Origin: an uncultured Spartobacteria bacterium
GTDB lineage: Bacteria; Verrucomicrobiota; Verrucomicrobiia; Chthoniobacterales; Chthoniobacteraceae
Direction of reading: 5' to 3'
Length of the DNA stretch: 64,000 bases
Assembly: GCA_903919125.1 (NCBI GenBank)
Contig: CAIXGS010000005.1
Coordinates: 62,001 to 126,000 of the forward strand
Below, in pieces: positions 4,391 through 64,000 of this stretch; position 1 is the stretch's first letter; the number at the start of each line of letters is the position of its first letter. The position numbers and the translations under genes were made by a program. The notes under the pieces were generated by a model that was given only the letters and a program-made list of their open reading frames with translations, ran no database searches and was not told the origin of the DNA.

Positions 4391-4443
4391 GCCGAACGAT
4401 TCCAACCGCATCCGCGTCTCGCGCTGATTGCGTTTACCTAGAA

Positions 4444-4472
4444 GGGCGGTGTCTTCGGGCACCGTCCTTTTT
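4444..4472 (+). terminator. Rho-independent terminator of the rpoBC operon
   Basis: A 10-bp stem (GGGCGGTGTC at 4444-4453, GGCACCGTCC at 4458-4467) is capped by a C(UUCG)G tetraloop and followed at once by TTTTTCCTTTTT. Two of the pairs are G-U. This is a textbook intrinsic terminator placed 53 bp after the rpoC stop codon, and it separates the polymerase genes from acnA. Confidence 0.9.
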
Positions 4473-4647
4473 CCTTTTTGAGGGACTCGACCTCGCAGTG
4501 AAGCGGGCTCGAATATCCAGCGACAAGCGAATGCCAGACCAGACGGGGTAAGGCTTCATTCCGACTTTTTTGAAACTTACTGCATTCTCTGTGGGTCAGT
4601 GCTTGAAATACACCCCCTCGATCGTGTCTTGTCATCTAATTGTAATC

Positions 4648-42042: not shown

Positions 42043-42163
42043 CGGGAGGTTGTGACAGGGCGAGAGCTGCGCGCAGGAAGTAGGGTTTTTCGTACGAGCG
42101 TCAGGGGTGTGGCTTGCGACTTTGGTTGTGGCGTCGGCTGCTGTAATGCGCCGTCACGAATGC

Positions 42164-46200: not shown

Positions 46201-46298
46201 GGAACGTTGATCCACATTAGGTCGGCGCGCAGTGCTGGAGTTAGTAACAAACCAGCAATGGAGGCGACGAATAGGGGAGAAAGGGGGCGAAGCATCAT
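43281..46298 (-). CDS. PVC-type heme-binding (CxxCH) exported dehydrogenase-like protein
   Basis: A 1,005-aa exported protein. The ATG at 46298 gives a signal peptide (LSPLFVASIAGLLLTPALRA); the frame could extend 25 codons to 46373. An N-terminal beta-sandwich with FKV-like segments (KVNGETLAQEQGKFNTSAKF) resembles a carbohydrate-binding module. A beta-propeller of the glucose/sorbosone dehydrogenase type follows (KGRLICSDQYGSLYRVTPAP, AFDSLFVMVGEGASKGIHRL, HGPHSLQLSPDGKRVYFCCG), then helical HEAT-like repeats, and a C-terminal cytochrome c motif CVTCHH (Cys869, Cys872, His873) followed by NIGPDLTG and a candidate axial Met in VSPMPPGLI. This is the Verrucomicrobium/Pirellula family of membrane-bound dehydrogenase-type proteins, probably a sugar oxidase. 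It is divergent from the giant autotransporter. Confidence 0.92.
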   Translation of the reverse strand: MMLRPLSPLFVASIAGLLLTPALRADLMWINVPKGLDCNSGTYAKTFEVKGPIRSAWLRVATNRNGVVKVNGETLAQEQGKFNTSAKFDTSSLLKPGSNLISIDVSDNKAGPHLVAQLTLEYADGTKQIVETGDDWTFAALGKNKTAPAPALVGGKYQASNDALCLFPPTVTLAADIAAPKDFKVELLHRVPKLEEGSWVGLTVDPKGRLICSDQYGSLYRVTPAPLGSTDAEAATKVETLATEVKGVHGLLYAFDSLFVMVGEGASKGIHRLTDTQGKDQFDKDEYLVPLEGSGEHGPHSLQLSPDGKRVYFCCGNHTKPPATIDHMRGAQSWNEDHLLPRLWDANGHAKGILAPGGYIASITPEGKDLEVFCYGYRNEFDFSFNLNGDIFTYDADMEWDIGTPWYRPTRINQSPSGADFGWRSGAGKWPAYYADSLPATLDIGPGSPTGVTFGTGAKFPARYQKALFANDWTYGTMYAVMLTPEGAGYKAEKTEFVSGKPLSVTDVVISPRDGALYFAVGGRRNQSALYRVTYTGTESTAPVKPDVLPKEALLRREMEALHVDGTSLDAIAKAWPHLASSDRFLRNAARIAIEKQPSSAWVEKALSEKNPQSAIEALIALARVGEATMQPRLLEALSRLDYRKITPTLRLPLLRAWQLAFTRMGKPTPEVCAQIAKRFEPLFPQTSTYENNELLQLLVYLDSPQAVSKAIALMQTMGDDYDNSTDTTLLNRNDGYSTAFKSAQDSRPNKGQIAMAYTLRNASVGWTPELRKTFFAWFASTTQWKGGNSFAKFLVNIRNDALTHVSDEAEKVALEKLSTTAAPKPANFVMPKGPGRLYSIDDVVALAKEGLHGRNFENGKAMYASTQCVTCHHFANDGGNIGPDLTGAANRYSVRDLAESLIEPSKVISDQYAFQEISLKGGSLVVGRVIGEENGKFLVMTNPFAPDATAQVTIADVVSRKDYAVSPMPPGLINMLNPDELLDLIAYLFSGGNPKDKVFASLSR

Positions 46299-46624
46299 AG
46301 TGAGTGGTGGAGGAGAGGAACGTATCGAAAAAAGGCCGAGCAGACCATAGGTGGAAATACAGTTCGAGGACATTCCTTATAGTTTTTTTACGGCAACGGA
46401 CTACTGGCACGGATCAAGCTATCTACAGTTCAGCATCCATCTTCTATCTTCCGAGGATAGGCCGCTACAGAAGGGGTGAAAAACTCTATGATTAGTTGAG
46501 GAAATAGCCTTGTGGTATCGGAGGTTTGGGCTAATAAATTGTCACTTGCCAGAAACTGCCCTGAGAGAGTCCCTTTGTTGATCTTTTTCTGAGAGTAGAT
46601 TGGCTGTTTAGCCCCCCAGTAACA
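46299..46624. other. Intergenic region between divergent heme-binding and autotransporter genes
   Basis: 326 bp without a coding region I can support. It must hold promoters for both genes. Weak candidates are TATGAT at 46487-46492 reading right (with GCTACA 17 bases before it), and TATAAG on the minus strand at 46381-46376 reading left. Neither has a good -35 box and no known operator or riboswitch is recognisable. An in-frame stop at 46562 ends the upstream frame of the autotransporter, so its start must be at or after 46565. Confidence 0.4.
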
Positions 46625-49600
46625 ATGAAGCAAACGCTTAAAGGCATCTCGAAAAGCCAGTGTGATTTCTCTAGAGAGGAGAAATTTGTCCCCCAACCAA
46701 ACTTTGGGTGGCCCTTTCGTCTACTGGCGTTTCTGATTGCTTTTGCGGTGTTTTTTCAAGGGCCAGTGCTAGTCGCGGCAACCATTACATGGGACCCTTT
46801 TAAGTTATACAGTTCTGGTAGTTTGGGCGTTTCTTCCGGTGGTACGTACGGCGGAACGTTTAGCACTCTCTCAAGCGGCCACTGGTTGGCGAGCGGAAGC
46901 CTCGGATCTACGCTAGTTCCGGGTAGCTCTGATATCGTGATTCTGAATTTGGGTTCAGCAAATTATTCCATTAGTTTGAGTGGCACCATCGCGTCCATCG
47001 CGGGAGGAACAGTAAGCGCCGGCACGGGCTTGGCGGGGACGACTATTTCGTTTGCTGGCTCTGGCACGCTCGCGATCGGGGGCACGGGCTTCACTGTCAA
47101 CGCGGGAACGTTATCATTAGGAGCTCCTGTCTTGGTACGGTTGCTTGCTAGCCAGACTTGGTCGGTTTCGACAGGGTCGCAAATGGTTGTCGCCGGTACG
47201 ATTACGGGCACTGGATTCGATCTTACCAAAAGTGGCGGTGGTATTTTAACTCTATCGGGTAGCGGCGGCTACACCGGTTCAACCTACATCACTGCTGGCA
47301 CGTTGAACGCTGGAACGGGTTCCCTCGCAAATACGGGCACCATCGTCCTGAGCGGCGGTTCGCTGAGTGCCGTGGATGTGAAAAGCGGGGCGCTGTTCAC
47401 GGGCAGTGTGGGCACGACGGCAAGTTTTTCGAGTACGGCGCTGACCCTTGGCACGGTGGCGGAGTTCGGTTCGCTGACTTTTAGCGGAACGTCTGGGACG
47501 GTTGTTTTGGGGGGCTTGTCTGGCACTGGATTGACAACATTTGCTAGCAGTGGCTCGATTTCGAGCGGGTCGATTACGGGCGGCACAGTGAGCGTGGCGA
47601 GCAATTTGAGCTCTAACGTCTCGGGCGGCTCGGTGACGGTGGGCGGCATTTTCACGGGAGGCACCGTCAGTGGCGGTTCGCTAAACCTAACTGGCAGTGG
47701 TTCTTCGAGTATTTCGACGTTGTCCGGAGGAACCATCGCAAATTCCGGGACATTGCAGATTACGACGGGCACTTACGCGGGTGGACTCAGTGGAACCGGG
47801 TCGCTGATGAAAGTGGGAGCCACTCAATTGACCTTAAGCGGTGCCAATTCGTACACCGGTTCAACCTACATCACTGCTGGCACGTTGAACGCTGGAACGG
47901 GTTCCCTCGCAAATACTGGCACCATCGTGCTGAGCGGCGGTTCGCTGAGTGCCGCGGATGTGAAAAGCGGGGCGCTGTTCACGGGCAGTGTGGGCACGAC
48001 GGCAAGTTTTTCGAGTGCGGCGCTGACCCTCGGCACGGTGGCTGAGTTCGGTTCGCTGACGTTTAGTGGAACGTCTGGTATGGTTGTTTTGGGCAGCTTG
48101 TCCGGGACCGGGGTAACGACCTTTGCCAGCAGCGGCTCGATTTCCAGTGGCAGCATCACGGGCGGCACCGTCAGTGTTGCGAGCAATTTGAGCTCAAACG
48201 TCTCCGGTGGCTCAGTGACGGTGGGCGGCACTTTCACTTCCACGGTGATGAGCGGCGGGACGGTCACCGTAGCTGGGTTGACGAACGAAGCGCTTTTGAG
48301 CGGCGGCAGCCTCATTGCGAACGGCGGCGGCACGCTGACAACGATGACGGCCGGGGCTCTCACCGTGGGCAGTCTCGCGACCCTGGCTCTCGGGACAGTC
48401 ACCGGCGGGTCAATTGCTGACAATGGTGCGCTTTCCATCTCCGCTGGCACGCTGACTGGGGTGCTGAGTGGCACTGGAGCTTTATCGAAAGTCGGTACGG
48501 ATGTGCTCAATTTGAACGTTGCCAACACGTTTAGTGGCTCTATCACTGTCGCGGCCGGAACGTTGACGGGCGTTTCAGGCGCGTTTTCAAGCGTCTCGTC
48601 CATCACGCTCAACGCCGGTTCATTGAGTGCCGCTAATTTTGGCTCATCCACGGCGTTTACTCTCGCTTCTGGGGCGCGTGGGTTTGTTTCGAGTGCAACC
48701 TCTCTTGGCGCCGTGGCGAATGCTGGAAGCCTCAATTTCACGGTGGCAAGTGGGCTTGTTTCTCTCGCCAGCCTTTCGGGTGACGGAACGACCAACTTCA
48801 CAGGGGCGACTTCCACTGGCTCGATTTCCAGCGGCAGCATCTCCGCCGGCACGGTGACTGCGACGGGTTCCCTGATTGCAAACGTCTCTGGCGGCTCGGT
48901 GACGGTCGGCGGCATTTTCACGGGCGGCACAGTCAGCGGCGGTTCGCTAAACCTGACTGGCAGCGGTTCTTCGAGTATTACCACGTTATCCGGAGGCACT
49001 ATCGCAAATTCCGGGACATTGCAGGTTTCTTCGGGCACTTACGCAGGTGGACTCAGCGGAACGGGGTCGTTGATGAAAGTGGGAGCCGCTCAGTTGACGT
49101 TAAGCAGCGCCAATACGTACACCGGGTCAACCTATATCACGGCGGGCACGTTGAGCGCTGTGTCTGGCGCTCTGGCGAATACGGGCACCATCGTCCTGAG
49201 CGGCGGCTCACTGGTTGCTGTGGATGTGAAAAGTGGGGCGCTGTTCGCGGGCAGTGTGGGAACGACGGCAAGTTTTTCGAGCACGACGCTGACCCTCGGC
49301 ACGGTGGCGGAGTTCGGTTCGCTGACGTTTAGCGGAACGTCCGGGACCGTTGTTTTGGGGAGCTTATCCGGAACTGGATTAACAACATTTGCCAGTAGCG
49401 GCTCGATTTCCAGTGGCAGCATCACGGGCGGCACCGTCAGTGTGGCGAGCAATTTGAGCTCAAACGTCTCCGGTGGCTCGGTGACGGTGGGCGGCACTTT
49501 CACTTCCACGGTGATGAGCGGCGGGACGGTCACCGTAGCTGGGTTGACTAACGAAGCGCTGCTGAGCGGTGGCAGCCTCATTGCGAACGGTGGCGGCACA

Positions 49601-52600
49601 CTGACCACCATGACGGCCGGGGTACTTACCGTGGGCAGTCTCGGGAATCTGACTCTCGGAACAGTCACTGGCGGGGCGATAGCTGACAACGGTTCGCTCT
49701 CAATCTCCGCAGGCACGTTGACGGGGGTGCTGAGTGGCACCGGTACGTTCACTAAAACTGGGAACGCGAGTACGCTCACGTTGTCTAACGTGGCTAATAC
49801 CTTTTCCGGAACTCTGAATGTCGCTGGAGGGACTCTGTCTGCATTATCTTCTCTTAACGCGTTGCAGTCCGTAAGCGTGGTGAATGTGAACGCCGGTTCA
49901 TTCAATGCGATTTCTTTACCTTCTACTACTTTGTTAAATGTTGGCACTGGGGCGACTGCTAGCTTTTCTACCAATAGTCTTACGTTGGGCACGCTTTCAT
50001 CCTATGGTTCAATCTCCGCGAGTGGTGCCGTGATAAACATAGGTTCCTTTAACTCTTACGGTTCAACTTATTTTTCTGGCTCCACAGCAGCTGTTACCAT
50101 TGGTTCTCTTACTGGTACCGGCAGTATCGGATCGAATGGTAGTGGAGCATTCATTTTGTCTTCTGGAGCGATTACTCAGACGACGCTCAATCTTCCTTAT
50201 TCCAGCCTTACTGCCAATATTTCCGGTGGAAGCGTTTCAGTGAAATCGCTCTCTTCGCCCAATCAGACTATAAGCGGTGGATCAATTTATCTGACTGGTT
50301 CGGGAATTTCCACCTTGGGAACCTTGAGTGGCGGGACATTTTCACTGGTTAGTGGAGCCACTTTGCAGGTGAGCTCGGGAAATTACTCCGATCTCGGCGG
50401 GATTCGCGGGGCTGGAGCTTTGAGTAAAACGGGTTCGGGTTCTTTAATTCTGGGCTCTGTGAATGCGTACACTGGGGCAACATCCATCAGTGGCACGTTG
50501 CAGGCCACTGTGGCGGGAGCGCTGGGGGCGACAAGTTCTATTACGCTAAATGGTGGTAGCATCCTATCTGCCGTGGATTTGGGGACGGCTTCCCCTTCGT
50601 TGACGATCGGAGCTGCAGCCGTCGCTACCATATCCGGCACGAACGCTCTTTCTCTGCAAGGCGTCACCAATACGGGAAGTTTGTCCTTCAGCGGCACCAG
50701 CGGGACGGTTTCCTTAAGTTCGTTGAGCGGTGCGGCTGGGATCACCACATTCTCAAGTGCCGCAGCCGTCAGTGGGAGCATCAACTCCGGTACCGTGAGC
50801 GTCGCTGGAGCGCTCAGCAGTAATGTTGTTGCCGGTGGTAGCGTGTCGGTGGACGGTTACTTTACGGGGGGGACAGTGAGCGGCGGTTCGCTCAGCTTAT
50901 TAAGTGGCGGGAGCGTCACAACGCTCAATGGTGGAACCGTTCAGGGCCTTGGGGCCGGCACCTTGACCGTCAGCTTGAGCACGGGCACCTCCGCAACATT
51001 GCTCGCCGGTTCGCTGTCGTTGTTAAAAATTGGTGCGGGTACGCTGACATTAGGCAGAGCGAGTACGTTTACTGGCGACACTACCCTGAATGCTGGCGTT
51101 TTGAGCCTTAATAATGCCGCTGCCCTTGGCTCTGGCACTTTAATTATTGCTGGTGGCTCTTTAAACAACACTTCCGGTGGCCTCATCACCTTGAACAACA
51201 ACGTTCAAACCTGGTCGAGTGACATAAACTTCCTCGGCGGTAATCCTTTAAACTTGGGCTCCGGCTCCGTCACCGTATCCGCCGACCGAACCGTGACAGT
51301 GAACGCGAGCACGCTGACTGTGGGCGGCAGTATATCTGCTCTCGGGGCCACTCTGACGAAGGCTGGCTCGGGCGCGCTGGTGCTCTCAGGCACCAATACC
51401 TTCGGCGGAGTCTCCATGACCGCGGGATCATTGCTTTTACAGAGTCAGAATGCGTTGTCCGGCGGTTCTCTTTCTTTGACTGGAGGCACTCTGGACTTGG
51501 GTGGCTTTGTTCAGTCTATCACTAGCGGTAGTTTTATTTCCGGTAAGATTTTGAACGGAACCATTTCCAGCAGCAGTGTTCTCACGGTTAGCAGTTTTGA
51601 TATTGGCGTCAGATTGACTGGGACTGGGTCTCTCTTGAAACAAGGCTCAGGCACGGTAACCATCACTGGTGTGGGTAACGATTATAGCGGAGATACCAAT
51701 CTGAATGGAGGAACCCTGATCCTCAATAGCGACACTGCCTTGGGCACAGGGACTTTGAACGTGAATGGTGGTTCGCTTGGAGTCTCCACCGCAGGCTTGG
51801 TGACGCTCTCTTCAAACCCCCAAACTTGGGCCAACGACTTCTCGTTCTTTGGTCCCGGAACTCTCGCTGCCGGTAGCGGTGCAGTCACGATGACGGCAAG
51901 TCGGACGGTGAATGTCGCTTCCGGATCGCTGAATGTGGGCGGCGTGATTGGCGATGGTGGAAACGCCTTTAACTTGGTCAAATCAGGTTCCGGTATGTTG
52001 GTCTTAGGCGCGGCCAATACGTTCTCCGGCGACTTTATATTGAATACAGGTTCGGTAAACACGACGGCGATCGGCGCTTTGGGCGCGGGCAACGTGACGG
52101 TTACGGGTGGGAGGCTGAATCTTCAAAATACATCTCAAGATGTTTCCGGAATTATATCTGTATCAGGTGGCTACGTAAGCGGTGGGACCATCAATCTTTC
52201 CGGCGCTGGCCTTGCATTGAGTGGCGGTAACATCTCCGCAGATCTCGCAGGATCGGGTGGTTTCACGAGTTCGGGCACCGGACAGATTGCGGTTCTCGCA
52301 GGGAACAATACTTTCGGTGGTGACGCACTTCTTACCGCTGGCACCCTCGCTTTAAATCATGCCAATGCACTTAGTCTAAGTCGTTTCACTATCAGTGGCG
52401 GCTCCTTGGATAACACCAGCGGCGGCGCTCTCACGATGTCCAACGATCGCTCCCAAATCTGGGCGGGTTCCTTCGGGTTCGTCGGAACGAACAATCTTAC
52501 CTTCGAGCAGTCTATTACTCTTCAAAAGGACATCACTTTGAATGTCAGTGCTGGGAAGTTGACCGAAGGCGGCGCGATTTCGGGGACCTACAATCTCACC

Positions 52601-55600
52601 AAAGCCGGTAATGGCACCCTCGAGTTCACTGGGTCGAGTACCGGATTTTCGGGTGGCGTATCTGTTCTCGCTGGAACTCTCCTACTGAGCGCCGCCGATA
52701 CCCTACCCGGCATCAGCTCTCTCTCCTTGAGTGGTGGAAGCATCGACTTGGGCGGAGGTTCGCAGTCCTTCAGCTCTTTGACCCTGCAGGGGGGATATCT
52801 TGGCAATGGAACCTTGACCGCGAGCGGCACCATTTATCTGAATGCGGGTGAATTGGCCGCCGTCACCGGTGGAAGCGCTTCCTTATTGAAAGCTGGGTCA
52901 GGCACCGCAACCCTTTCGCAAGCCAACGCCTATACCGGCGGCACTAACATTTCAGCAGGCACACTTTATCTGGGAGATAATTCAGCATTGGGTAATGGTT
53001 CACTGACCCTTAGTGGCGGAAGTCTGGGCGTGAAAACCGGTTCATCCATCGCTCTCACTGGGGTTGACCAAAAAGTCTGGTCCAGCAACTTCTCTTTCTT
53101 CGGCGGCACTCTGGACGCTGGGACCGGCGCCGTTTCTATGACGCAAAGCGTCTCTGTGAACGTCAACTCTGGCTCGCTACTTGAAGGTGGCGCGATTTCG
53201 GGCACCTCTGCAGCGTTCGGTCTCACGAAAACTGGTAGCGGAACTCTGCAGCTCAGCGGCGCGAACACCTATACGGGAGCAACCGCGGTCAATGGCGGAC
53301 TTCTTTTCGTTCCAACGGGATCCGGCGGCAACACGTCTTCCGTCTCAATAGGCTCCGCCGGTTCCGCTCTCTTTGCCGATACTGGCCTAACCATTTCGGT
53401 TCCTTACGTAAACAACGGGAGCCTCACTTTTTCGGGCAACTCAGGCACTATCGCCCTCGGTAGTCTTACTGGCTCTGGAACTACAAATTTTGGTTGGGAT
53501 GCCATTATCACCAGCAGCATCAGTGGAGGGCGGGTCACGGTTGCAAATGCGCTGACGGCGAACATTTCAGCTGGAACCGTCCGAGCCGCGGTCATTACGG
53601 CTGGCACCATGAGTGGTGGATCGCTCACCCTGACCGATATCGCTCAGACTTCTAGTATCACAAATCTCTCAGGAGGCACTTATCTTCAAAATGACGGAAT
53701 ATTGTCTCTGTTTAGCGGTACCTTTCCAGGAGTTGTTGCCGGGAATGGAGTTATCAATAAGTCTGGCTCGCTAAACACCCTTAGTCTCTCGGGTGCCAAT
53801 ACATTTACGGGGCTAATGGATGTTCAGGAGGGGACTCTCAGTGCCCGACAATTTGGTAGTACTGCAACATTATTCGTTGGTACCAGTGCCACCGCAACTA
53901 TCACCGGCACTTCGCCGAGTTTGGGGCCGGTATTGAATGACGGTTCCTTGACCTTCAGCGCGCTTACTGGGACAGCCTCCTTGGGTTGGTTAGCTGGACT
54001 TAATACCTCTGGTGGTACTACTACTTTCTTAAGTAACGGCAGTATTGCGGGTGGCTTTTCAGGAGGTATTCTCCGGGCAGCGGGAGATTTGCTGCTACAG
54101 GGTAACATCAGTGATGGCACGATCTCTGCGGGTGCGATCGCGAGTGGCTTGGCAAACGGGATGACTGTCAGCGGCGGTTCTTTGAACGTAAGCGGGTTGA
54201 TCAGTCTTTCGCAGATCACCGGCGGGGTGGTGACTCAGACTGGGGCCGATGCTAGGGCTGTTACTTTGAACTTTATGTCTGGCGGCACCCTGATTACGAC
54301 AGGGAAGTTAACGGTTAGGAATGGGGGCGCTTTTGATGATATTATCGGTGGCTCAATTTTTGTGGGGCAGGAGGCCAGCTTGGGCCAGATAACCGGCGGT
54401 ACATTTACGATCAATGGAGCAGCGACTATTGGTCGTGTTGACGGAGGTAACTTTGACTTTCGCGGGGCTACAGAGATTAATAGGTTAAACGGAGGCAGCA
54501 TTTTGCTGAATGGCGCGGTGAGCGTGATTTCAGGAACCTACACGGGAGCTAACGGAATCATTAGCGGTACTTCGGATTTTCTCAAATCGCAGTCCAATGC
54601 CGCGGGTTCCACGTCTTTGCCGGTTGCTGACCTTCCCTACTTAATCATGCCTGGCAGCCTTACCTTAACGGGTCATCGGACTGGACAAACGAGTGATTTC
54701 GTCAATCTCCCTAGCCTGCCGATTGCCAATTTAACTGCCCCAGCGGGAGTTATTGTGGCTCCCGGTTCTGCTGTGCTATCTGGGGCCGCGTATACAAGAA
54801 CCGACACAGGTTGGCAGATTGCACGTGCTGACGAAACGTTATCGTTAAGCGGGGTCAATACTTACACAGGGGCAACATTTTTGCATGGTGGCAATTTAAT
54901 TTTAGCTGAAAACGCGATTAACTCCACCAGCAGTATCACGGTGGATGGTGGAGGTAGTGCTTCGTTTTTTTATCTAACAGATGGTCAGCCCATCACGGTC
55001 ATTAATGGAACCACTTTTTATGGTTCTGTTAGAACGAATTATACGAGAATGGTAATGGGAGGAAGCTTGACTGCCGTGAACGTGAGTCCCAGTGGCAACA
55101 CGTCGTTGACGGTCGGAACGTATGGGGTCGCGACATTCACTGGTAGTAATCTGTCGTTTCAAAACATTCAGAATGATGCTCCTTCCTCCTATCAAATAAG
55201 TACAACAAGACAGGACAGCGCGGTTTTGCTGGCGCAATCAGGGCTTTATTTCCCTAATATAGACTCGCAAGGAACCATCTCGATAGGGAATTTGACTGGA
55301 ACTGGTTACACGTACATTGAGTCCAACTTGTCCGGAGGGACTATTTCTATCTCCGGCGATGGTCTCAACGCAGGCTTGGGAGTGGGCTTGGTGGTGAGAG
55401 GGACGATTTACTCGGATATTGCGTCTGGGCATATTAGTGCGGGCGCTATTCGCAACCGTAACATTACAGGCGGCAATATTATCGCTGGTGGTGTCAATGT
55501 ATCTGGGTCATTCACCGGTGGTTCACTGACAGTTGGCGGAACTTCGACTTTTGGTTCGGTGACATTTTTGAGTGACGCTAGTTTGAACCTCAATGGACAG

Positions 55601-58600
55601 ACTGAGATCGGTTCCTATGTGGGTAACAACACTCCCACGCAGTCGCTGAACATCAACTCATCGGCTACTATAGGGCAAATTAATGGAGGTTTCAATTTAA
55701 CAGGCGTCCTTACGACCTCATCCGGGACCCTTTCCGGCTTAAATTTAGACAGTGGCAATAATAGCGGCGGAGTAGTCAAAGTTGGCACCTACACGACTTT
55801 AATTCTCAGCGGCACTAATAATTACGGTTCTACCACACTGAGCGGAGGCACCCTTCAATTGGCTAGCAGCACTGGACTTGGAAAGAGTGCGCTCAATCTG
55901 AACTCTGGGGTAACCTTGGGAAATACCAGTGGCGGTCCGCTTACATTTGCGATGCCGCAGTCTTGGAATGGAGATTTTACTTTTGCGGGACCGGACAGTT
56001 TAACGTTTTCCAGCGGCTCGGTGACTCTGGCCTCCAGTAGTACCATTACGGTAACTGCTGGGAGCTTTACTGAGGGCGGGGCGATTATTGGCGGCAGTGC
56101 GGGTCTCACAAAAAAAGGTAATGGTACTTTGGTGCTCAGCGGTCTTGGTAGCTTCAGCGGCGGCTTCACCGTAAGCGGCGGCAGCGTCAACGCGACACTC
56201 AGTAATGCTCTAGGGAGTGGAACCATCACAGTGGATTCCTCTAGTACGCTTAATCTTGGCAGCACCGCTCAGTCCGCATCTGGTTTTGTGCTCGGGGGAT
56301 CGTTTTCTAGCGGCAACGTGTTCGGGGGAACAATCGCGGCAGACAACTTCACGATTTTCAGCGGCCTAATGAATTCAAAATTGAGCGATGGACCGAGTGG
56401 TCCCGGCAGTCTGACGAAGTCTGGAACCGATACGGCTGTCCTATCTGGCTCGATTAGTTACACGGGACAGACGGCGGTGAGCGGAGGAAGTCTGGAGTTT
56501 AGTCAGACTGGGTTGGCGTTGTCGGGTGGCGTGGTGAACGATGCTCAACTTAGATTTTCCGCTACGAGTGGCACGGTGTCTCTTTCGAGTCTGAGCGGCG
56601 CGGGAACGACGCAATTTTCTAAGGATGGCCAAATCGGTGTATTAGCCGGCGGCACTGTTTCGACGGTGGGCACATTGTTTGTGACCTCAGGCTCCTTCTC
56701 GGGAAGTTTGCTGGGTGCCACTTCTTTAGAAAAGGTCGGTAGCGGTTCGCTCCTCACGCTCAGTGGTACGAGCGCGAACACGGGTTCGACAAAAGTGAGC
56801 TCGGGCACGTTGCGAAGCACCGTTTCAGGGGCGCTTTCGGCAACGAGTTCTCTTTCGGTGCTCGGCGGTTTGCTGGATGTGGTGGATTACAATCCGAATA
56901 TCACGCTGAGCGTTGGCACTTTGGGCGCCGCGCAGATTACCGGGAATAGCTTGACGCTCAACGGCGGTGCAAACAATGCGGGCAGCCTGAACTTCACGGC
57001 GACCAGCGGGACCTTAAGTTTGGGTAGCCTCAATGGAGCTGGAGCGACGTATTTTGCGGGCAACGCAACCATAGGCGGCAGCATCAGTCAGGGCATCGTG
57101 CGTGCTGCAGACTCCGCGACTCTGTACGCGACGGTCGCAGGGGGGAGCGTTACTACGGGAGCGCTCAACAGTACGACCTTATACGGCGGCACGATCACTT
57201 TGAATGCTGGAACGTCATTAATTAATACTTTCAGCGGCGGCGCAACCTTGACGATCGGCAGCCTTGCGTACCTTCAGGTCTACAACGGTTCTTTGAGCGG
57301 CATCTCTGGTGGTGGCACCGTGGTGAAAGTGGGAAGTTCTGACAGCCTCACTTTCAATGCGTCAAATCTCTTTACCGGCACTATGAGTGTGGCTGCGGGG
57401 ACACTCGTTGCGGATAGTTTTGGGACTTCGGCACTACTCAATGTCGGCACCTACGGGTTTGCGAATATTTCTGGTACGTCGAACATCAGTCTCGGAGCAG
57501 TGCTCAACGCCGGTTCGTTACTTTTCAGCGGCACCGCCGGCGCGGTGACGCTCGCCTCACTCAATGGCATTGGCACCACGACCTTCCTAAGTAACGGCTC
57601 GATCACAGCCGGACTGAGTGAGGGGAATGTGTTCGTGGCGGGCACACTCACCTTGGGGGGCGCCTTCTCGGGAGGAAACCTTACGACAAACCAATTGGTG
57701 GCTGCTTCGATCACCGGTGGTTCGTTGATTCTCTCTGGGCCTGGAACATCACAAATCGGACTGATTAGCGGAGGGACGCTCACGAATAATGCGACTTTGC
57801 AGATTAATTCCGGGACCATTACCAACGAGGTTGGTGGTTCTGGGATTTTACTAAAAATGGGCACATCTGAAGTCCTGAGCGTTCTTCAGGGTAAACTGCC
57901 TCAGATCGGAGGCGTCAGCGTTTTAGAGGGGACGTTAAATGCGGTGGATTTCGGGACATTGACCGCTACCAATTTGGTCGTGGGTTCCTTGGGAATTGGA
58001 GTGATTTCTGGAACAGGGATTTCGATCGGCAACGTCTCGAATGTTGGCAGCCTCACGTTCAGCGGCGGGACGGTTTCGCTCACAAGCTTGAGTGGGAACG
58101 GCGTCACCACGTTTGCAAATGAAGCGGCGATTTCTGGCACGCTCTCGGGAGGGACGATCACCGTGGCGGGAGTCTTCTCCGCAGGGGTGTTGAGCGGCGG
58201 GTCGCTGACGTTATTGTCGAATGGCACGATCGGTTTGCTTAACGGTGGTTCCTTGAGCAGCGACAGTGCGCTGGTGGTGACGGGTACCGGCGGGGCGGCG
58301 CTCGCGGCGGGTACTGGCGGGACGGTGTTGCAGGGGGCGCTTTCGTTGGAAAAGCGTGGAAGTGGAACGGTCAGCTTGGCTGCGGTCAACACGTACACTG
58401 GCGGGACGACGCTCACCGCTGGGACCTTGAACCTTAATAATGCGGCGGCCTTGGGTGGCGGCTCCTTCACGATTGCAGGCGGCGCGTTGGACAATACGAG
58501 TGGCGCAGCAGTGACCTTGAACGATCACTCGGAGACATGGGGCGGTAATTTCAGGTTCCGAGGAACCAGTGATCTCAACCTTGGATCAGGGACATTTACC

Positions 58601-61600
58601 TTGGCTGGCCTCCAGATTCTGACCGTGGAGGCAGGAACCTTGACGGTCGCTGGTGTCATTAGCGGCGGAAGCGATGGTTTTACCAAGGAAGGGAATGGTG
58701 CGCTAGTGCTGTCAGGCTCGGTTGCTTTCACTGGTGGAACCACCGTCAACGGCGGGATGCTATTACTCGGTGGCAGCAGCGCCTTGGCGGGCGCGGCACT
58801 TCGGGTGAGCGCGGGGAGCGTCGATCTGGGAGGAAATACTCAGGCAGTGGGCAACGTGAGTTTGCTGGCCGGTGGTTACATTGGGAACGGTACACTTGCG
58901 AGCAGTGGCTCGGTGAGTGTTGATTCTGGGGTGATTGCAGCGGTTATTTCCGGCTCCAGTGTGGTGACGAAGTCTAACGCAGGTTCTGCCACCTTGAGCA
59001 TCGCCAACTATTACACCGGGGGGACGGTCATCAATGGTGGCACTTTGAATATCAATGACGCTCTCGCCATCGGTACTGGTACGCTGAGTATCGCGAACGG
59101 CGGCCTGGGGACGACGGTAGCCGCTGGGATCACCCTCAGCACCAATAACGCTCAAATCTGGGCCGGAAGCTTCTCGTTTTCTGGCTACACATTAGACATG
59201 GGAACTGGGGGAATTACCATGACGGGCAACCCTGTGATTACCGTGAATTCAGGTTCTTTGCTGGAAGGGGGGGCGATCAATGGTGGCACCTCTAGCCTGA
59301 CGAAAGCTGGGAATGGAACGTTGCTGTTATCTGGAAGCAACAGCTTTACGGGCGGAACGAATGTGAATGGTGGCACGTTGTTACTCAAGGGAACCAACGC
59401 GCTTGCTGGTGGAGCCCTGACGGTGAGCTCTGGGAGCATCGACTTGGATGGCAGTACTCAGTTGGTGGGTGATGTTAGGCTGTCGGCGGGTGGCTATATT
59501 GGGAACGGTACCATCTCGAGTTCTGGGTCCGTGAGTCTTGATGCGGGAGTGATCGCGGCGGTGATTGGTGGCACGGGATTCGTGACTAAGTCGAACGTCG
59601 GGACTGTGACATTGAACCAAGCGAACACCTATAGCGGTGGGACTTTCCTGAAAGGCGGCACCTTGGACATCGGGATCAATGCAGCTATCGGTAGCGGGTC
59701 CTTGTACATCGACGGGGGAAATCTCTCGGCAATAGGTGGTTCTTTCACCTTGAACAACGCGCAGGTTTGGAAGACTGACTTTAGTTTTAGCGGTATCTCG
59801 CTCAATATGGGCACCGGCGCGGTGACCGTGACGGATAATCGCACACTCAAGGTGGCTTCAGGGACGTTGACCATCGGCGGGAACATTAGCGGTGGGACCT
59901 ATAGCCTGACGAAAACAGGGAATGGAACGTTGCTGCTTGGTGGAAGCAACACTTTTGGTGGTGGCCTGAGCGTTTCAGCTGGAACTTTAGCGCTGGGCAG
60001 TTCTGCGAAGTTGACGACAGTGAGTTCTTTGACTGCGTCGGGTGGGGTGTTTGACTTGGGCGCTGGCAGCCTTACGTTTTCGCAAGTTGATTTAACTGGT
60101 GGAACAATTGCCAATGGCACGGTGACCTCCTTGACGGACTACGCGCTCCAAAGCGGGAGTGTGTCAGCGGTTCTTGTGGGAACGAACGCTTTGCTGAAGA
60201 GCGGCGCGGGCCGTTTGACCTTGTCGGGTGTGAACACGTATAGCGGTGCAACTAGCGTCAGCGGGGGGATGTTGGTCGTGACGAGCGCTGGTGCGCTTGC
60301 GAACACGAGCGGTATCGGCGTCACCGGTGGTTCGCTGGACGCCGTGGATTACAACGGCGGCGTTTTGCTGAACGTAGGGGCGGCTGGTATGGCGAGTTTC
60401 TCGGGCGCTGGGCTCTCAGTCGGGACCATTTACAGTGACGGCTCGCTGAATTTCCGAGCTGTAACAGGAAGTATCACTGTCGGTACTTTATCGGGCAGTG
60501 GCGCGACGACCTTTGCGAGCAATGCCAATTTGAGTGCTGCGTTTCAAGTCGGCCAGTTGGTGGTTGGTGGCACTTTGAATGCGGATATCACCTCTGGCAG
60601 TGTGACTGCAGGGGTGCTTTTTGGCGGAACGGTTGGCGGCGGTGTAATCACCACCACCGATGCAGCGGCTTCTTCCAATGTGACAAATCTCAACGGCGGC
60701 ACGTTTGTGCTCGGGGGCAGTCTACTGGTGACTTCGGGAACTTACTCGGGTGGCGGCTTCAGTGGGACGGGAGCCCTCGTAAAAATTGGGAGCGGCACTA
60801 CTTTGAAGATAGATTCGCCTGCCAATCACACCAACCCCACAACGATCGCAGCAGGAACATTGTTGGTCACAAACTCCGGATCTTTTGCCGCTGTCCAGAA
60901 TGAAGGTGCCATCGAATTCCGGGCAACGGCTACGTTGGCCAGTCTGAGCGGTGCTGGGGCAACTAGCTTTGACGGAGCAACGGCGAGCGTCGGGACTCTG
61001 AATGGCAACTCGGTCACAGGCAGCGCTGTTCTCTCGGTATCTTCTGGGACGCATAATTCTGGGGTGATTGGCGGCTCCATAGCGCTTGTGAAGACTGGCA
61101 ACGGGGCGTTAACGCTGGGGACGGCGGACTCCTACACCGGTGGGACGACACTCGTGGCAGGCACGTTGACGGTGAACAATGCTGGCGCGTTGGGGAGTGG
61201 GAGTCTGCGAATAGAGGGCGGTTCTTTGGCGACGAGCGCGGGTTCTGTCATGTTGAGCAGCAACATTGCTCAAGTGTGGGCGGGAAGTTTTGGTTTCTCA
61301 GGCGGCACTTTGGACATGGGCACAGGGGCCGTCACGCTTAGCGGAAGTCAGTCGCTCACCATTTCGTCTGGTGTGTTCATCGAGCGTGGAGCCATCTCGG
61401 GCGCATTTGGGCTCACGAAGTTGGGTGCCGGTAATTTGGTGCTGGCAGGGGCTAATACTTTCACTGGAGGGGTGAATGTGACTGCTGGAACGCTAACTCT
61501 TCTGGGCTCCGGCGGGTTTGGGACTGGCAATCTCACCCTTGGATCTAATGCTACTCTCGACATCACGAATTCCCCATTAACCCTGCAGAACGTTATCATC

Positions 61601-64000
61601 CAAGGGGGCAAAATTTTGGGTTCAGTGGCCATTAGCGGAGCGAACCCCATAGGAGGTGTTTCCGATGTCAAGCTAACGGGCACGGGCACTGTCGTTGTGG
61701 ACACGGCAACTGCCGACTCTGGCACACTTTTCGTGCTGAATAATCAAAGCACCTACTCGGGTGGCACTGAGTTGAAAGCGGAGAGTCAGATCTTGAGTTT
61801 CGGCACCAGCAGTGTAGGCGCCGCCAGCGGCCCGATTGGTACCGGACCTTTGAAAGTTTTGGCCAGTGGTTCAATCGACGCGAGCACGGCCAATGTTAAC
61901 CTTTCCACCAATAACGCCCTCGTTCTGGCTGGTAGCCTGACTTTCCTCGGCACTAATGACCTAAACCTTGGAGCGGGCTCCGTCTCCCTACAAGATACTC
62001 AAGCGCTCATTACCAGTAAGAACACGCTGACGGTCGGCGGATCCATTTCTGGAACGGGTAGTCTGAACAAAATGGGAGCTGGTACACTGAAATTGACGGG
62101 CTCTTCTCTTTCTCAGTCTGGTACGACTAAAGTGTCCGAGGGAATCCTTGAGTTTGCCAATAGCGCGACGGTCTCTGCACCGGTGCAGTTGGTTGGTGGG
62201 ACGCTGAAAGTGGATAGCGGGACACTCCTCACCGTGGGTGTTCTGAACTATTCCGGCGGTTCCTTGACCGGCTCTGGTTCATTGAAAGCGTCGACGGTGT
62301 CGGTGGATTCAGGCCTTAACCTGAGCTCCGGGTCCACGACATTCACGGGAAGTTTGGCGAAGACCGGAGATGGGACGCTCACGTTAGCAAGCAGCGCTTT
62401 AAGTCAAATGACCCTTTCCGCAGGCTCCTTGCGAATCCTCTCTGCGGGTGCCTTGGGTTCGGCTAGCCTGGTGATTGACGGTGGAACCTTTGATACGACG
62501 GCGTTCTCAGGAGGAACCCTCTCGGTCAGTTCCGTAAACCTGAACAGCAGTTCCACCTTCAATGTGGTCGCAGGGAAGGAGCTCAATACAGGGACTGGGA
62601 CTGTTATTCTGACTCAAACTGCTGCTTTGAATACCGTCGCAGGTACTTTGACCGTGGACAGCTTGATTTCGGGTGGAACTAACGGACTTACCAAGACGGG
62701 TCTTGGCACACTAAAGTTAGCGGGCAGTACCTTTAGCGGAACGACCGTGGTTAGCGACGGTACTTTAGAATATAAGGCTAACGGGACCGCTTCTGGACCT
62801 ATCGTTGTTAGTTCTGGTGCGACAGCAAAGCTGGATGGTAATTTTAGTGGCGGCTTAGTCAACGTGGGTTCGCTGGGTACGATTATCCTCGGCGGCGGTA
62901 CTCTGAGCGTGGGCACCTTTAGTTTTGGCTCAAGCAAGGGAGAGTCAGGCGGTACTTTGCAGACCACTTCGGGAAAAGTGACGGCTTTCGTAGGGACCCT
63001 CAAAGGCTCTGGAACTATCAGTGGCCCAGGTACCGTGGTGTTCGGTGCCGGTTCGACGCTGGATGTGGGTTACTCGCCTGGGGTGCTCGTGGTGGGCGGT
63101 GGTGCGACTATGGCGATCGCCAGCGAGGGTGTTGCGGTAAAGTACGAGTTCGATCCTAGTGTGACGAATCCAGATCTCGGGAATATCACCGCCTCGGGTG
63201 ATTTGGCTTCTGATCGTATCGTGGTGAATGTTGGGGGAAGCCTTACCTTCCAGAACGGCGCAACCATGACGCTGACGCCCACTTATATTTCAGGAAAGAT
63301 TTTAGCGCCAGGTACGTACCGCGAATTCCCACTTGTGATCGTCAACGGAGGAACGATTAACGCTTTGAATCAAAGCGGTACTCTTGTCACTGTATCCGGA
63401 ATCAATCTAGACAGCTATTTCAAGGTGGGTTCTGGTGCTGTGGTTTCTGGGACATTTAGGCAACTGGCTGGAGGAACTGTCGATGTAACCCTAGTCCGTA
63501 AATCTTACGCGTCGGTCAGTACCAACTCGGGGAACTTGCGGCAGACAGCGGCCGTCTTGGACTCGATTTTGAGTGCGAGCATGTTGGCTGGAGGAACCGC
63601 TGCGATCGCCTCTATTGGTACGCTCTTTACTGCGCTGGATTCAAAGACCACGGCCAATGAGATCGATACGATCCTCGCGGCCCTCAATCCCGCGCCTTAT
63701 GCGGAACTGGGTAATGTGGGAATGGGCCGTATGATGGATTTGCAGGCCGCAATCCAAGGGCATCTCGACACGTTGGCTATCGGTGTGCTCTCAGACGTGG
63801 AGCCCAGTCCCGGAGAGGCGCGTGAAAGTAGCGCTTGGACGAGCGTTTATAGCGGTTGGGCGAATCGTGATGGGAGCACCTCTCAAGGGCTCGCAGGGTA
63901 TTCTTCGCGCAATTTCGGGAGCATTTCCGGGGTCGAACATCGTTTCGGCGACCTGACCCTCGGCTTGACCGGTGCTGTCGGCAGCACTTCGGCTACTTTC
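46625..64000 (+). CDS. Giant autotransporter adhesin-like protein with PATR repeats (partial, runs off the right edge)
   Basis: I translated every codon from the ATG at 46625 to 64000 and found no stop, so at least 5,792 residues are encoded (17,376 bp). A signal peptide is present but with a 30-residue, hydrophilic N-region (MKQTLKGISKSQCDFSREEK) before the core LLAFLIAFAVFF, cut near VLVAA. The passenger is almost all Gly, Ser, Thr, Val, Leu and Asn and contains about 35 PATR motifs of the form LTKxGxGTLxLSGxNTYTGGT. Its last copies are near 62693. A helical linker (about 63535-63780, with LAALNPAPYAELG) leads to a beta-barrel that starts near 63830 (SAWTSVYSGWANRDG) and is cut by the window edge. 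The type V autotransporter family forms cell-surface adhesins. No Cys follows residue 13, as expected for such passengers. The chain is exceptionally long. Confidence 0.95.
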   Translation, partial: MKQTLKGISKSQCDFSREEKFVPQPNFGWPFRLLAFLIAFAVFFQGPVLVAATITWDPFKLYSSGSLGVSSGGTYGGTFSTLSSGHWLASGSLGSTLVPGSSDIVILNLGSANYSISLSGTIASIAGGTVSAGTGLAGTTISFAGSGTLAIGGTGFTVNAGTLSLGAPVLVRLLASQTWSVSTGSQMVVAGTITGTGFDLTKSGGGILTLSGSGGYTGSTYITAGTLNAGTGSLANTGTIVLSGGSLSAVDVKSGALFTGSVGTTASFSSTALTLGTVAEFGSLTFSGTSGTVVLGGLSGTGLTTFASSGSISSGSITGGTVSVASNLSSNVSGGSVTVGGIFTGGTVSGGSLNLTGSGSSSISTLSGGTIANSGTLQITTGTYAGGLSGTGSLMKVGATQLTLSGANSYTGSTYITAGTLNAGTGSLANTGTIVLSGGSLSAADVKSGALFTGSVGTTASFSSAALTLGTVAEFGSLTFSGTSGMVVLGSLSGTGVTTFASSGSISSGSITGGTVSVASNLSSNVSGGSVTVGGTFTSTVMSGGTVTVAGLTNEALLSGGSLIANGGGTLTTMTAGALTVGSLATLALGTVTGGSIADNGALSISAGTLTGVLSGTGALSKVGTDVLNLNVANTFSGSITVAAGTLTGVSGAFSSVSSITLNAGSLSAANFGSSTAFTLASGARGFVSSATSLGAVANAGSLNFTVASGLVSLASLSGDGTTNFTGATSTGSISSGSISAGTVTATGSLIANVSGGSVTVGGIFTGGTVSGGSLNLTGSGSSSITTLSGGTIANSGTLQVSSGTYAGGLSGTGSLMKVGAAQLTLSSANTYTGSTYITAGTLSAVSGALANTGTIVLSGGSLVAVDVKSGALFAGSVGTTASFSSTTLTLGTVAEFGSLTFSGTSGTVVLGSLSGTGLTTFASSGSISSGSITGGTVSVASNLSSNVSGGSVTVGGTFTSTVMSGGTVTVAGLTNEALLSGGSLIANGGGTLTTMTAGVLTVGSLGNLTLGTVTGGAIADNGSLSISAGTLTGVLSGTGTFTKTGNASTLTLSNVANTFSGTLNVAGGTLSALSSLNALQSVSVVNVNAGSFNAISLPSTTLLNVGTGATASFSTNSLTLGTLSSYGSISASGAVINIGSFNSYGSTYFSGSTAAVTIGSLTGTGSIGSNGSGAFILSSGAITQTTLNLPYSSLTANISGGSVSVKSLSSPNQTISGGSIYLTGSGISTLGTLSGGTFSLVSGATLQVSSGNYSDLGGIRGAGALSKTGSGSLILGSVNAYTGATSISGTLQATVAGALGATSSITLNGGSILSAVDLGTASPSLTIGAAAVATISGTNALSLQGVTNTGSLSFSGTSGTVSLSSLSGAAGITTFSSAAAVSGSINSGTVSVAGALSSNVVAGGSVSVDGYFTGGTVSGGSLSLLSGGSVTTLNGGTVQGLGAGTLTVSLSTGTSATLLAGSLSLLKIGAGTLTLGRASTFTGDTTLNAGVLSLNNAAALGSGTLIIAGGSLNNTSGGLITLNNNVQTWSSDINFLGGNPLNLGSGSVTVSADRTVTVNASTLTVGGSISALGATLTKAGSGALVLSGTNTFGGVSMTAGSLLLQSQNALSGGSLSLTGGTLDLGGFVQSITSGSFISGKILNGTISSSSVLTVSSFDIGVRLTGTGSLLKQGSGTVTITGVGNDYSGDTNLNGGTLILNSDTALGTGTLNVNGGSLGVSTAGLVTLSSNPQTWANDFSFFGPGTLAAGSGAVTMTASRTVNVASGSLNVGGVIGDGGNAFNLVKSGSGMLVLGAANTFSGDFILNTGSVNTTAIGALGAGNVTVTGGRLNLQNTSQDVSGIISVSGGYVSGGTINLSGAGLALSGGNISADLAGSGGFTSSGTGQIAVLAGNNTFGGDALLTAGTLALNHANALSLSRFTISGGSLDNTSGGALTMSNDRSQIWAGSFGFVGTNNLTFEQSITLQKDITLNVSAGKLTEGGAISGTYNLTKAGNGTLEFTGSSTGFSGGVSVLAGTLLLSAADTLPGISSLSLSGGSIDLGGGSQSFSSLTLQGGYLGNGTLTASGTIYLNAGELAAVTGGSASLLKAGSGTATLSQANAYTGGTNISAGTLYLGDNSALGNGSLTLSGGSLGVKTGSSIALTGVDQKVWSSNFSFFGGTLDAGTGAVSMTQSVSVNVNSGSLLEGGAISGTSAAFGLTKTGSGTLQLSGANTYTGATAVNGGLLFVPTGSGGNTSSVSIGSAGSALFADTGLTISVPYVNNGSLTFSGNSGTIALGSLTGSGTTNFGWDAIITSSISGGRVTVANALTANISAGTVRAAVITAGTMSGGSLTLTDIAQTSSITNLSGGTYLQNDGILSLFSGTFPGVVAGNGVINKSGSLNTLSLSGANTFTGLMDVQEGTLSARQFGSTATLFVGTSATATITGTSPSLGPVLNDGSLTFSALTGTASLGWLAGLNTSGGTTTFLSNGSIAGGFSGGILRAAGDLLLQGNISDGTISAGAIASGLANGMTVSGGSLNVSGLISLSQITGGVVTQTGADARAVTLNFMSGGTLITTGKLTVRNGGAFDDIIGGSIFVGQEASLGQITGGTFTINGAATIGRVDGGNFDFRGATEINRLNGGSILLNGAVSVISGTYTGANGIISGTSDFLKSQSNAAGSTSLPVADLPYLIMPGSLTLTGHRTGQTSDFVNLPSLPIANLTAPAGVIVAPGSAVLSGAAYTRTDTGWQIARADETLSLSGVNTYTGATFLHGGNLILAENAINSTSSITVDGGGSASFFYLTDGQPITVINGTTFYGSVRTNYTRMVMGGSLTAVNVSPSGNTSLTVGTYGVATFTGSNLSFQNIQNDAPSSYQISTTRQDSAVLLAQSGLYFPNIDSQGTISIGNLTGTGYTYIESNLSGGTISISGDGLNAGLGVGLVVRGTIYSDIASGHISAGAIRNRNITGGNIIAGGVNVSGSFTGGSLTVGGTSTFGSVTFLSDASLNLNGQTEIGSYVGNNTPTQSLNINSSATIGQINGGFNLTGVLTTSSGTLSGLNLDSGNNSGGVVKVGTYTTLILSGTNNYGSTTLSGGTLQLASSTGLGKSALNLNSGVTLGNTSGGPLTFAMPQSWNGDFTFAGPDSLTFSSGSVTLASSSTITVTAGSFTEGGAIIGGSAGLTKKGNGTLVLSGLGSFSGGFTVSGGSVNATLSNALGSGTITVDSSSTLNLGSTAQSASGFVLGGSFSSGNVFGGTIAADNFTIFSGLMNSKLSDGPSGPGSLTKSGTDTAVLSGSISYTGQTAVSGGSLEFSQTGLALSGGVVNDAQLRFSATSGTVSLSSLSGAGTTQFSKDGQIGVLAGGTVSTVGTLFVTSGSFSGSLLGATSLEKVGSGSLLTLSGTSANTGSTKVSSGTLRSTVSGALSATSSLSVLGGLLDVVDYNPNITLSVGTLGAAQITGNSLTLNGGANNAGSLNFTATSGTLSLGSLNGAGATYFAGNATIGGSISQGIVRAADSATLYATVAGGSVTTGALNSTTLYGGTITLNAGTSLINTFSGGATLTIGSLAYLQVYNGSLSGISGGGTVVKVGSSDSLTFNASNLFTGTMSVAAGTLVADSFGTSALLNVGTYGFANISGTSNISLGAVLNAGSLLFSGTAGAVTLASLNGIGTTTFLSNGSITAGLSEGNVFVAGTLTLGGAFSGGNLTTNQLVAASITGGSLILSGPGTSQIGLISGGTLTNNATLQINSGTITNEVGGSGILLKMGTSEVLSVLQGKLPQIGGVSVLEGTLNAVDFGTLTATNLVVGSLGIGVISGTGISIGNVSNVGSLTFSGGTVSLTSLSGNGVTTFANEAAISGTLSGGTITVAGVFSAGVLSGGSLTLLSNGTIGLLNGGSLSSDSALVVTGTGGAALAAGTGGTVLQGALSLEKRGSGTVSLAAVNTYTGGTTLTAGTLNLNNAAALGGGSFTIAGGALDNTSGAAVTLNDHSETWGGNFRFRGTSDLNLGSGTFTLAGLQILTVEAGTLTVAGVISGGSDGFTKEGNGALVLSGSVAFTGGTTVNGGMLLLGGSSALAGAALRVSAGSVDLGGNTQAVGNVSLLAGGYIGNGTLASSGSVSVDSGVIAAVISGSSVVTKSNAGSATLSIANYYTGGTVINGGTLNINDALAIGTGTLSIANGGLGTTVAAGITLSTNNAQIWAGSFSFSGYTLDMGTGGITMTGNPVITVNSGSLLEGGAINGGTSSLTKAGNGTLLLSGSNSFTGGTNVNGGTLLLKGTNALAGGALTVSSGSIDLDGSTQLVGDVRLSAGGYIGNGTISSSGSVSLDAGVIAAVIGGTGFVTKSNVGTVTLNQANTYSGGTFLKGGTLDIGINAAIGSGSLYIDGGNLSAIGGSFTLNNAQVWKTDFSFSGISLNMGTGAVTVTDNRTLKVASGTLTIGGNISGGTYSLTKTGNGTLLLGGSNTFGGGLSVSAGTLALGSSAKLTTVSSLTASGGVFDLGAGSLTFSQVDLTGGTIANGTVTSLTDYALQSGSVSAVLVGTNALLKSGAGRLTLSGVNTYSGATSVSGGMLVVTSAGALANTSGIGVTGGSLDAVDYNGGVLLNVGAAGMASFSGAGLSVGTIYSDGSLNFRAVTGSITVGTLSGSGATTFASNANLSAAFQVGQLVVGGTLNADITSGSVTAGVLFGGTVGGGVITTTDAAASSNVTNLNGGTFVLGGSLLVTSGTYSGGGFSGTGALVKIGSGTTLKIDSPANHTNPTTIAAGTLLVTNSGSFAAVQNEGAIEFRATATLASLSGAGATSFDGATASVGTLNGNSVTGSAVLSVSSGTHNSGVIGGSIALVKTGNGALTLGTADSYTGGTTLVAGTLTVNNAGALGSGSLRIEGGSLATSAGSVMLSSNIAQVWAGSFGFSGGTLDMGTGAVTLSGSQSLTISSGVFIERGAISGAFGLTKLGAGNLVLAGANTFTGGVNVTAGTLTLLGSGGFGTGNLTLGSNATLDITNSPLTLQNVIIQGGKILGSVAISGANPIGGVSDVKLTGTGTVVVDTATADSGTLFVLNNQSTYSGGTELKAESQILSFGTSSVGAASGPIGTGPLKVLASGSIDASTANVNLSTNNALVLAGSLTFLGTNDLNLGAGSVSLQDTQALITSKNTLTVGGSISGTGSLNKMGAGTLKLTGSSLSQSGTTKVSEGILEFANSATVSAPVQLVGGTLKVDSGTLLTVGVLNYSGGSLTGSGSLKASTVSVDSGLNLSSGSTTFTGSLAKTGDGTLTLASSALSQMTLSAGSLRILSAGALGSASLVIDGGTFDTTAFSGGTLSVSSVNLNSSSTFNVVAGKELNTGTGTVILTQTAALNTVAGTLTVDSLISGGTNGLTKTGLGTLKLAGSTFSGTTVVSDGTLEYKANGTASGPIVVSSGATAKLDGNFSGGLVNVGSLGTIILGGGTLSVGTFSFGSSKGESGGTLQTTSGKVTAFVGTLKGSGTISGPGTVVFGAGSTLDVGYSPGVLVVGGGATMAIASEGVAVKYEFDPSVTNPDLGNITASGDLASDRIVVNVGGSLTFQNGATMTLTPTYISGKILAPGTYREFPLVIVNGGTINALNQSGTLVTVSGINLDSYFKVGSGAVVSGTFRQLAGGTVDVTLVRKSYASVSTNSGNLRQTAAVLDSILSASMLAGGTAAIASIGTLFTALDSKTTANEIDTILAALNPAPYAELGNVGMGRMMDLQAAIQGHLDTLAIGVLSDVEPSPGEARESSAWTSVYSGWANRDGSTSQGLAGYSSRNFGSISGVEHRFGDLTLGLTGAVGSTSATF
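47270..47656 (+). repeat. Third related copy of the passenger module
   Basis: A 387-bp stretch matching 47852-48238 in phase, 582 bp (194 codons) upstream. It carries YTGSTYITAGTLNAGTGSLA, then VDVKSGALFTGSVGTTASFS and GTVAEFGSLTFSGTSG. It overlaps the 5' end of the first 864-bp copy, so three copies of this module lie in the first 3 kb of the passenger. Confidence 0.85.
47615..48478 (+). repeat. Direct repeat, copy 1, inside the autotransporter gene
   Basis: An 864-bp (288-codon) stretch that recurs at 48881-49744 with the same phase, offset 1,266 bp (422 codons). Within it occur identical runs such as the region around 48196-48290 and 49462-49556, differing by isolated, mainly third-codon-position changes. 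The in-between 402 bp (48479-48880) is not repeated. Its limits are sharp: before 47615 and after 48478 the two copies diverge to ordinary passenger similarity. Confidence 0.9.
48881..49744 (+). repeat. Direct repeat, copy 2, inside the autotransporter gene
   Basis: Second copy of the 864-bp unit starting at 47615. The unit includes the PATR motif KVGAAQLTLSSANTYTG and the modules NVSGGSVTVGG, AVDVKSGALFAGSVGT, TSTVMSGGTVTVAGLT and SISAGTLTGVLSG. Its high nucleotide similarity to copy 1, including many silent positions, suggests a recent duplication or gene conversion. Confidence 0.9.

Follow-up and report, generated by a model that had tools for sequence, protein, structure and literature searches.

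The locus and its reading frame

The window analysed here is a stretch of 64,000 nucleotides, equivalent to C5:62001-126000 of a 4.34-Mb draft genome in 87 contigs. Its right-hand part contains the following features, with residues (aa) of the giant protein numbered from its first codon:

42107-43168, plus strand: YhgA-like/Transposase_31 gene (PF04754), 3.5 kb upstream of the giant gene
43281-46373, minus strand: 1,030-aa protein with a cytochrome c domain, upstream of the giant gene
46625-64000, plus strand, stop at window-equivalent 64687: coding sequence of the putative giant autotransporter of type Va, 6,020 aa long (ORF, contig sequence)
46625-46780, plus strand: putative signal peptide, about 52 aa (translation read by eye; long N-termini similar in relatives)
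47222-51019, plus strand: passenger block A1, spanning aa ~200-1465 and made up of ~195- and ~226-aa modules (repeats, window-wise BLAST, PATR model)
51020-53359, plus strand: passenger block B1, spanning aa ~1466-2245 and built of PATR modules roughly 95-114 aa long (window-wise BLAST, PATR model)
53360-55744, plus strand: passenger block A2, covering aa ~2246-3040, whose A-type modules are divergent (window-wise BLAST)
55745-58324, plus strand: mixed B and A blocks, aa ~3041-3900 (window-wise BLAST, PATR model)
58325-60184, plus strand: passenger block B, aa ~3901-4520, PATR spacing 111/95/111/95/108/95 (PATR model, AlphaFold)
60185-62824, plus strand: A then B blocks up to the last PATR, aa ~4521-5400 (window-wise BLAST, PATR model)
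62825-63691, plus strand: aa ~5401-5689, C-terminal passenger or autochaperone-like region plus linker (genus alignment, model)
63692-63784, plus strand: predicted alpha-helix before the barrel, aa ~5690-5720 (model helix 310-340)
63827-64000 in the window and on to 64684, plus strand: predicted 12-strand translocator barrel, aa 5735-6020 (PF03797, model)

The frame beginning at 46625 is open through the window end at 64000, a length of 5,792 codons in the ORF list, and the contig sequence beyond carries it on to a TAA stop at C5:126687, 687 bases past the window edge. From ATG to TAA it comprises 6,020 codons and contains no N, earlier stop or frameshift. An earlier note on this DNA had claimed an uninterrupted frame and predicted an intact protein of close to 6,000 residues; extension past 64000, which it had proposed as a check, bore out both. 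Its description of a gene without a stop is true inside the window only, since the ORF is complete on the contig and the missing stop is purely a product of the window edge. The same cut lies behind its expectation that annotation could easily overlook the gene. The predicted product has a mass of 577 kDa and a pI of 4.8, and carries passenger and barrel on a single polypeptide, as in type Va autotransporters. Minus-strand ORFs of up to 390 aa (for example 47866-49038) lie inside the giant gene and are taken for shadows of its coding frame.

Downstream of the giant gene, beyond the window, lies an MFS transporter gene. A unit of about 250 bp with inverted arms occurs twice (96-99% identical) just downstream of the giant, at window-equivalent ~64760-65490; its core 28-mer has 14 copies in the genome at up to 3 mismatches and none in the reversed control.

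In the nearest relative, genome G009, the cytochrome gene is kept, its protein being 90% identical, and is followed by a scar (G009:C49:20977-21543) in which 85 bp and 65 bp that match the 3' part of the giant are joined ahead of the downstream region. A further contig, G009:C200, is 98% identical to the scar contig over a shared 400 bp and retains no fewer than the final 106 residues of the barrel. From these sequences, the bin would seem to contain the locus in two forms, one deleted and one with its end intact. The flanking genes are present in most other congeners, yet the adjoining stretches that were read showed neither a barrel nor a giant N-terminus. The giant at this locus is confined to the window's genome and G009, and since the latter also carries the deleted version, the gene appears dispensable.

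N-terminus and passenger

The earlier note had claimed a signal peptide, and the translation, judged by eye, does have a signal-peptide-like N-terminus. An unusually long hydrophilic n-region is followed by RLLAFLIAFAVFFQGPVLVAA, the hydrophobic stretch occupying aa 32-52 and having VLVAA at its end. The Pfam scan of the protein reported no ESPR match. Several autotransporters of the genus, including one on G005:C2, likewise seem by eye to have very long signal peptides of about 47-80 aa with a hydrophilic n-region.

The passenger of about 5,650 residues contains some 30 PATR stretches. As the earlier note had suggested, the Pfam profiles were searched, and PF12951 was found along the passenger and the autotransporter beta-domain (PF03797) at the C-terminal end; these are the only Pfam domains in the protein, and no enzyme domain was found. 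With the protein divided into two pieces sharing residues 2901-3000, Pfam places 14 PF12951 stretches in residues 1-3000 and 15 in 2901-6020, scoring 136.6 and 154.3 bits (cut-off 27). The NCBIfam model TIGR02601 agrees (147 and 158 bits, cut-off 19.85), and with a local PATR model 32 stretches are recognised in the protein and none in a shuffled copy. The equivalog model for ShdA (NF011847) was tried and excluded, its scores of 32.8 and 26.7 bits standing against a curated cut-off of 2249.

Two module types alternate along the passenger, longer ones of 195-226 aa and shorter ones of 95-114 aa. In window-wise BLAST the longer modules mostly find their best match in the paralogue on C48 and in G005:C52, and the shorter ones in other giants of congeners. 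A PATR-like stretch opens most modules of block A1, which also holds internal duplications. Self-BLAST of the protein returned zero rows, and internal similarity is taken from the repeat search, window-wise BLAST and the local HMM. The passenger has grown through duplication of PATR modules of both kinds. The region following the last PATR (aa ~5401-5689) has a motif, L.G.GT..G......L..G.SPG.L, which is conserved in the genus alignment.

AlphaFold models cover aa 3881-4500 and 5381-6020 of the 6,020 residues. The first is an all-beta solenoid (mean pLDDT 86.7) whose strand spacings add up to rungs of about 20 residues. Foldseek with this repeat model alone gave no significant match (best E 0.04). 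VIA-align, brought in after that result, gave best Z scores of 12-13 against the passengers of EspC, TibA and EspP. Model and Z scores together suggest that the passenger is a beta-helix.

Linker and barrel

The earlier note had placed the start of a barrel near 63830 and regarded its absence after 64000 as a possible refutation. The PF03797 match (E = 8e-33 with a 420-aa C-terminal piece) begins at C5:125833, window-equivalent 63833, and the barrel continues to 64684. In the AlphaFold model of aa 5381-6020 (pLDDT 83.8) a long helix is succeeded by 12 long strands; the helix, at model residues 310-340, directly precedes strand 1 at 355 and is predicted to occupy the position of the type Va pore-threading linker. 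The best 18 PDB structure matches of this model are all type Va autotransporters, those named being AaaA (E 7e-25), EstA, NalP, AIDA-I, EspP, Hbp and BrkA. The PDB, searched by sequence with the last 420 aa, gave no match, nor did a plasmid search. When pieces of 3,120 aa and 4,898 aa were submitted to hmmscan only PATR was listed, the barrel being seen in the 420-aa piece and in the six-frame search; this is taken as an effect of the HMMER filters on long repetitive proteins.

Integrity, export and function

The intact frame, the barrel, the linker, the PATRs, the predicted beta-solenoid, the duplication, the purifying selection described below and the presence of BAM- and TAM-type genes are best explained by a complete single gene that encodes a giant autotransporter of the classical type (Va), with the proposed export route and beta-helix stalk; the probability of this reading is put at about 0.93. 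Were the gene an assembly artefact, its repeats would have been misjoined or expanded and the real gene would be shorter, or several genes. The draft state of the assembly speaks for this, as do other PATR genes in it which are broken at contig ends and thus indicate that such genes trouble assembly. Against it, no exact DNA repeat inside the gene exceeds 68 bp, less than a 76-bp contig overlap elsewhere in the assembly, Tandem Repeats Finder reports no array in the gene, and the frame is open throughout; repeat length and the lack of arrays make collapse or expansion unlikely. Moreover, the internal duplicates (83-92% DNA identity) differ chiefly at synonymous sites, and an artefactual origin is accordingly considered very improbable. 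More improbable again is a decaying or non-functional frame held open by composition alone, for which the haplotype of the nearest relative with the gene cut down to its scar might be cited. The five other frames contain 114-405 stops each over the giant gene, the longest open frame in composition-shuffled sequence (20 shuffles) is 213 codons, and the barrel is intact by Pfam and AlphaFold. Five in-register comparisons of 300-500 bp between internal duplicates near the N-terminus give dN/dS values of 0.08-0.20, which argues that the frame is translated and selected; comparisons of shorter, older or out-of-register duplicates range from 0.07 to 0.52.

For the complete autotransporter gene, then, secretion route, fibre length and an adhesive or spacer role are proposed by analogy with the family, in which passage through Sec, barrel insertion by BAM and C-terminal-first export with folding outside the cell are established. 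The long signal peptide would direct the chain via Sec into the periplasm, where BAM would insert the C-terminal 12-strand barrel into the outer membrane, TAM probably assisting. The window's genome has an Omp85 gene of BamA type on C36, and a further Omp85 gene (C13:76406-77248) adjoins a TamB gene (C13:78469-79437) as a TamA/TamB-type pair. The passenger would exit C-terminal end first as a hairpin and fold outside, rung by rung, into the beta-helix. At about 20 residues per rung and a rise of 4.8 Å, some 5,650 passenger residues would form around 270-280 rungs, a barrel-anchored stalk of about 130 nm. The function is likely to be that of an adhesin or a surface stalk or spacer fibre, no enzyme domain having been found. 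The same protein might have another job, its passenger being cleaved and released, or self-associating in a biofilm matrix, instead of forming a stalk or adhesin anchored to the cell. Among the better VIA-align structural matches of the repeat model are Ag43 and TibA, two proteins that promote autoaggregation. Release by proteolysis also occurs in some autotransporters (PMC3419190). Pfam found no protease domain in the protein, and this alternative is regarded as possible, if the less likely of the two roles.

Other giants in the genome and genus

Homologous barrels occur in 10 of the 12 genomes of the genus, 56 PF03797 matches lying over the Pfam cut-off. The median open frame carrying them is about 1,270 aa and eight exceed 5,000, many being cut by contig ends. 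The window's genome has eight barrels, four of them on frames running off a contig end, and a PATR scan of it adds large barrel-less frames on C27 (14,194 aa), C10 (10,747 aa), C30 (7,192 aa) and C52 (3,046 aa), the last three of which run off their contigs. Alongside these four barrel-less frames there are four barrel pieces without an N-terminus. An exact 76-bp end overlap, the only one among the contig ends compared for broken giants, indicates that C52 and C54 probably encode one protein of about 4,690 aa. The C27 frame stops at position 3447 and an overlapping PATR frame of 1,208 aa continues to the contig end, a break which looks like a frameshift, whether real or a sequencing error. Together the barrel and PATR frames of this genome encode about 63,800 aa and so occupy at least 4.4% of the assembly.

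More striking than the window gene is a single frame of 20,385 codons in a congener (G003:C2:25303-86460), with both ends within the contig and no N. One of its six frames is open, and it contains no repeated 60-mer; a search for exact repeats of at least 21 bp found none. The Pfam scan covered five of the six pieces into which the protein was cut, all but one of 1,699 aa, and shows 46 PATR stretches in them, while a six-frame search finds a C-terminal PF03797 barrel (E 8e-31). By eye, translation likely starts about 100 codons into the frame, giving a protein nearer 20,290 aa. The C27 protein resembles the first part of this giant, its N-terminus being 37% identical and another 1,255 alignment columns 53% identical, with collinear stretches at 43-71%, while C40 matches its last 2,300 residues at 35-59% identity, largely collinearly. 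The upstream flanks of the C27 and G003 giants share nothing at E 1e-15, so that their kinship rests on the protein. On these alignments C27 and C40 look like the two ends of one relative, together about 18,300 residues; no overlap was found between their ends, and their union in a single gene is therefore an inference. Other large open frames reach 10,634, 9,503, 9,273, 8,874 and 8,665 aa in congeners and 12,016 and 11,142 aa in the class, a barrel having been looked for in part of them. It is probable, with less assurance than attaches to the window gene itself, that the genus produces type Va autotransporters some 20,000 residues long, roughly double the size of BigE, and that PATR giants take up several percent of its chromosome.

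Relation to known giant surface proteins

The window protein belongs to a known family and is large but recognisable, the sizes reached in the genus being the new part. With the PATR/beta-helical type Va proteins (PF03797 with PF12951/TIGR02601), such as Ag43, AIDA-I, ShdA and IcsA, it shares a barrel of 12 strands, an alpha-linker and PATRs, along with a probable signal peptide and a predicted beta-helical passenger. It differs from them in its roughly 30 PATR-like stretches, its two alternating module types and its host, an uncultured member of the Verrucomicrobiota, and is some three to six times longer. Searches of the open-access literature turned up no report of giant autotransporters from Verrucomicrobiota. 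The window gene offers a clean example of autotransporter growth by added PATR modules, and its relatives of up to 20,385 codons, or about 2 MDa, bear on the export-length limit of the type Va barrel. The findings suggest that a poorly studied verrucomicrobial lineage puts more than 4% of its genome into such surface proteins, and that draft assemblies break much of its giant-protein coding at contig ends.

The size of the window protein is unusual in general, not within its own genome or genus. The earlier note had placed it far above usual autotransporters, which holds in general and against the genus median; it does not hold against the larger PATR frames of the same genome or against BigE, which at 10,429 residues has been called the largest known autotransporter (Celik et al. 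2012, PMC3419190). BigE and the window protein are both of type Va and both enlarged by replication of passenger modules; set beside it by description, BigE is the larger and has one domain repeated 8-fold together with 69-residue repeats (PMC3419190).

A parallel outside type V secretion is provided by Giant1-5 of Apilactobacillus kunkeei, which come from a Gram-positive lactic acid bacterium and hence do not form a type V system. Giant1-5 are surface proteins of 3,000-8,000 aa which take up 6% of the genome (PMC12863079), and they share with the giants of the present genus beta-solenoid parts and a notable share of the genome, 6% as against at least 4.4% here. A 2024 survey counted more than 41,000 proteins of over 5,000 aa and found them enriched in phyla of the PVC superphylum (PMC11573180).
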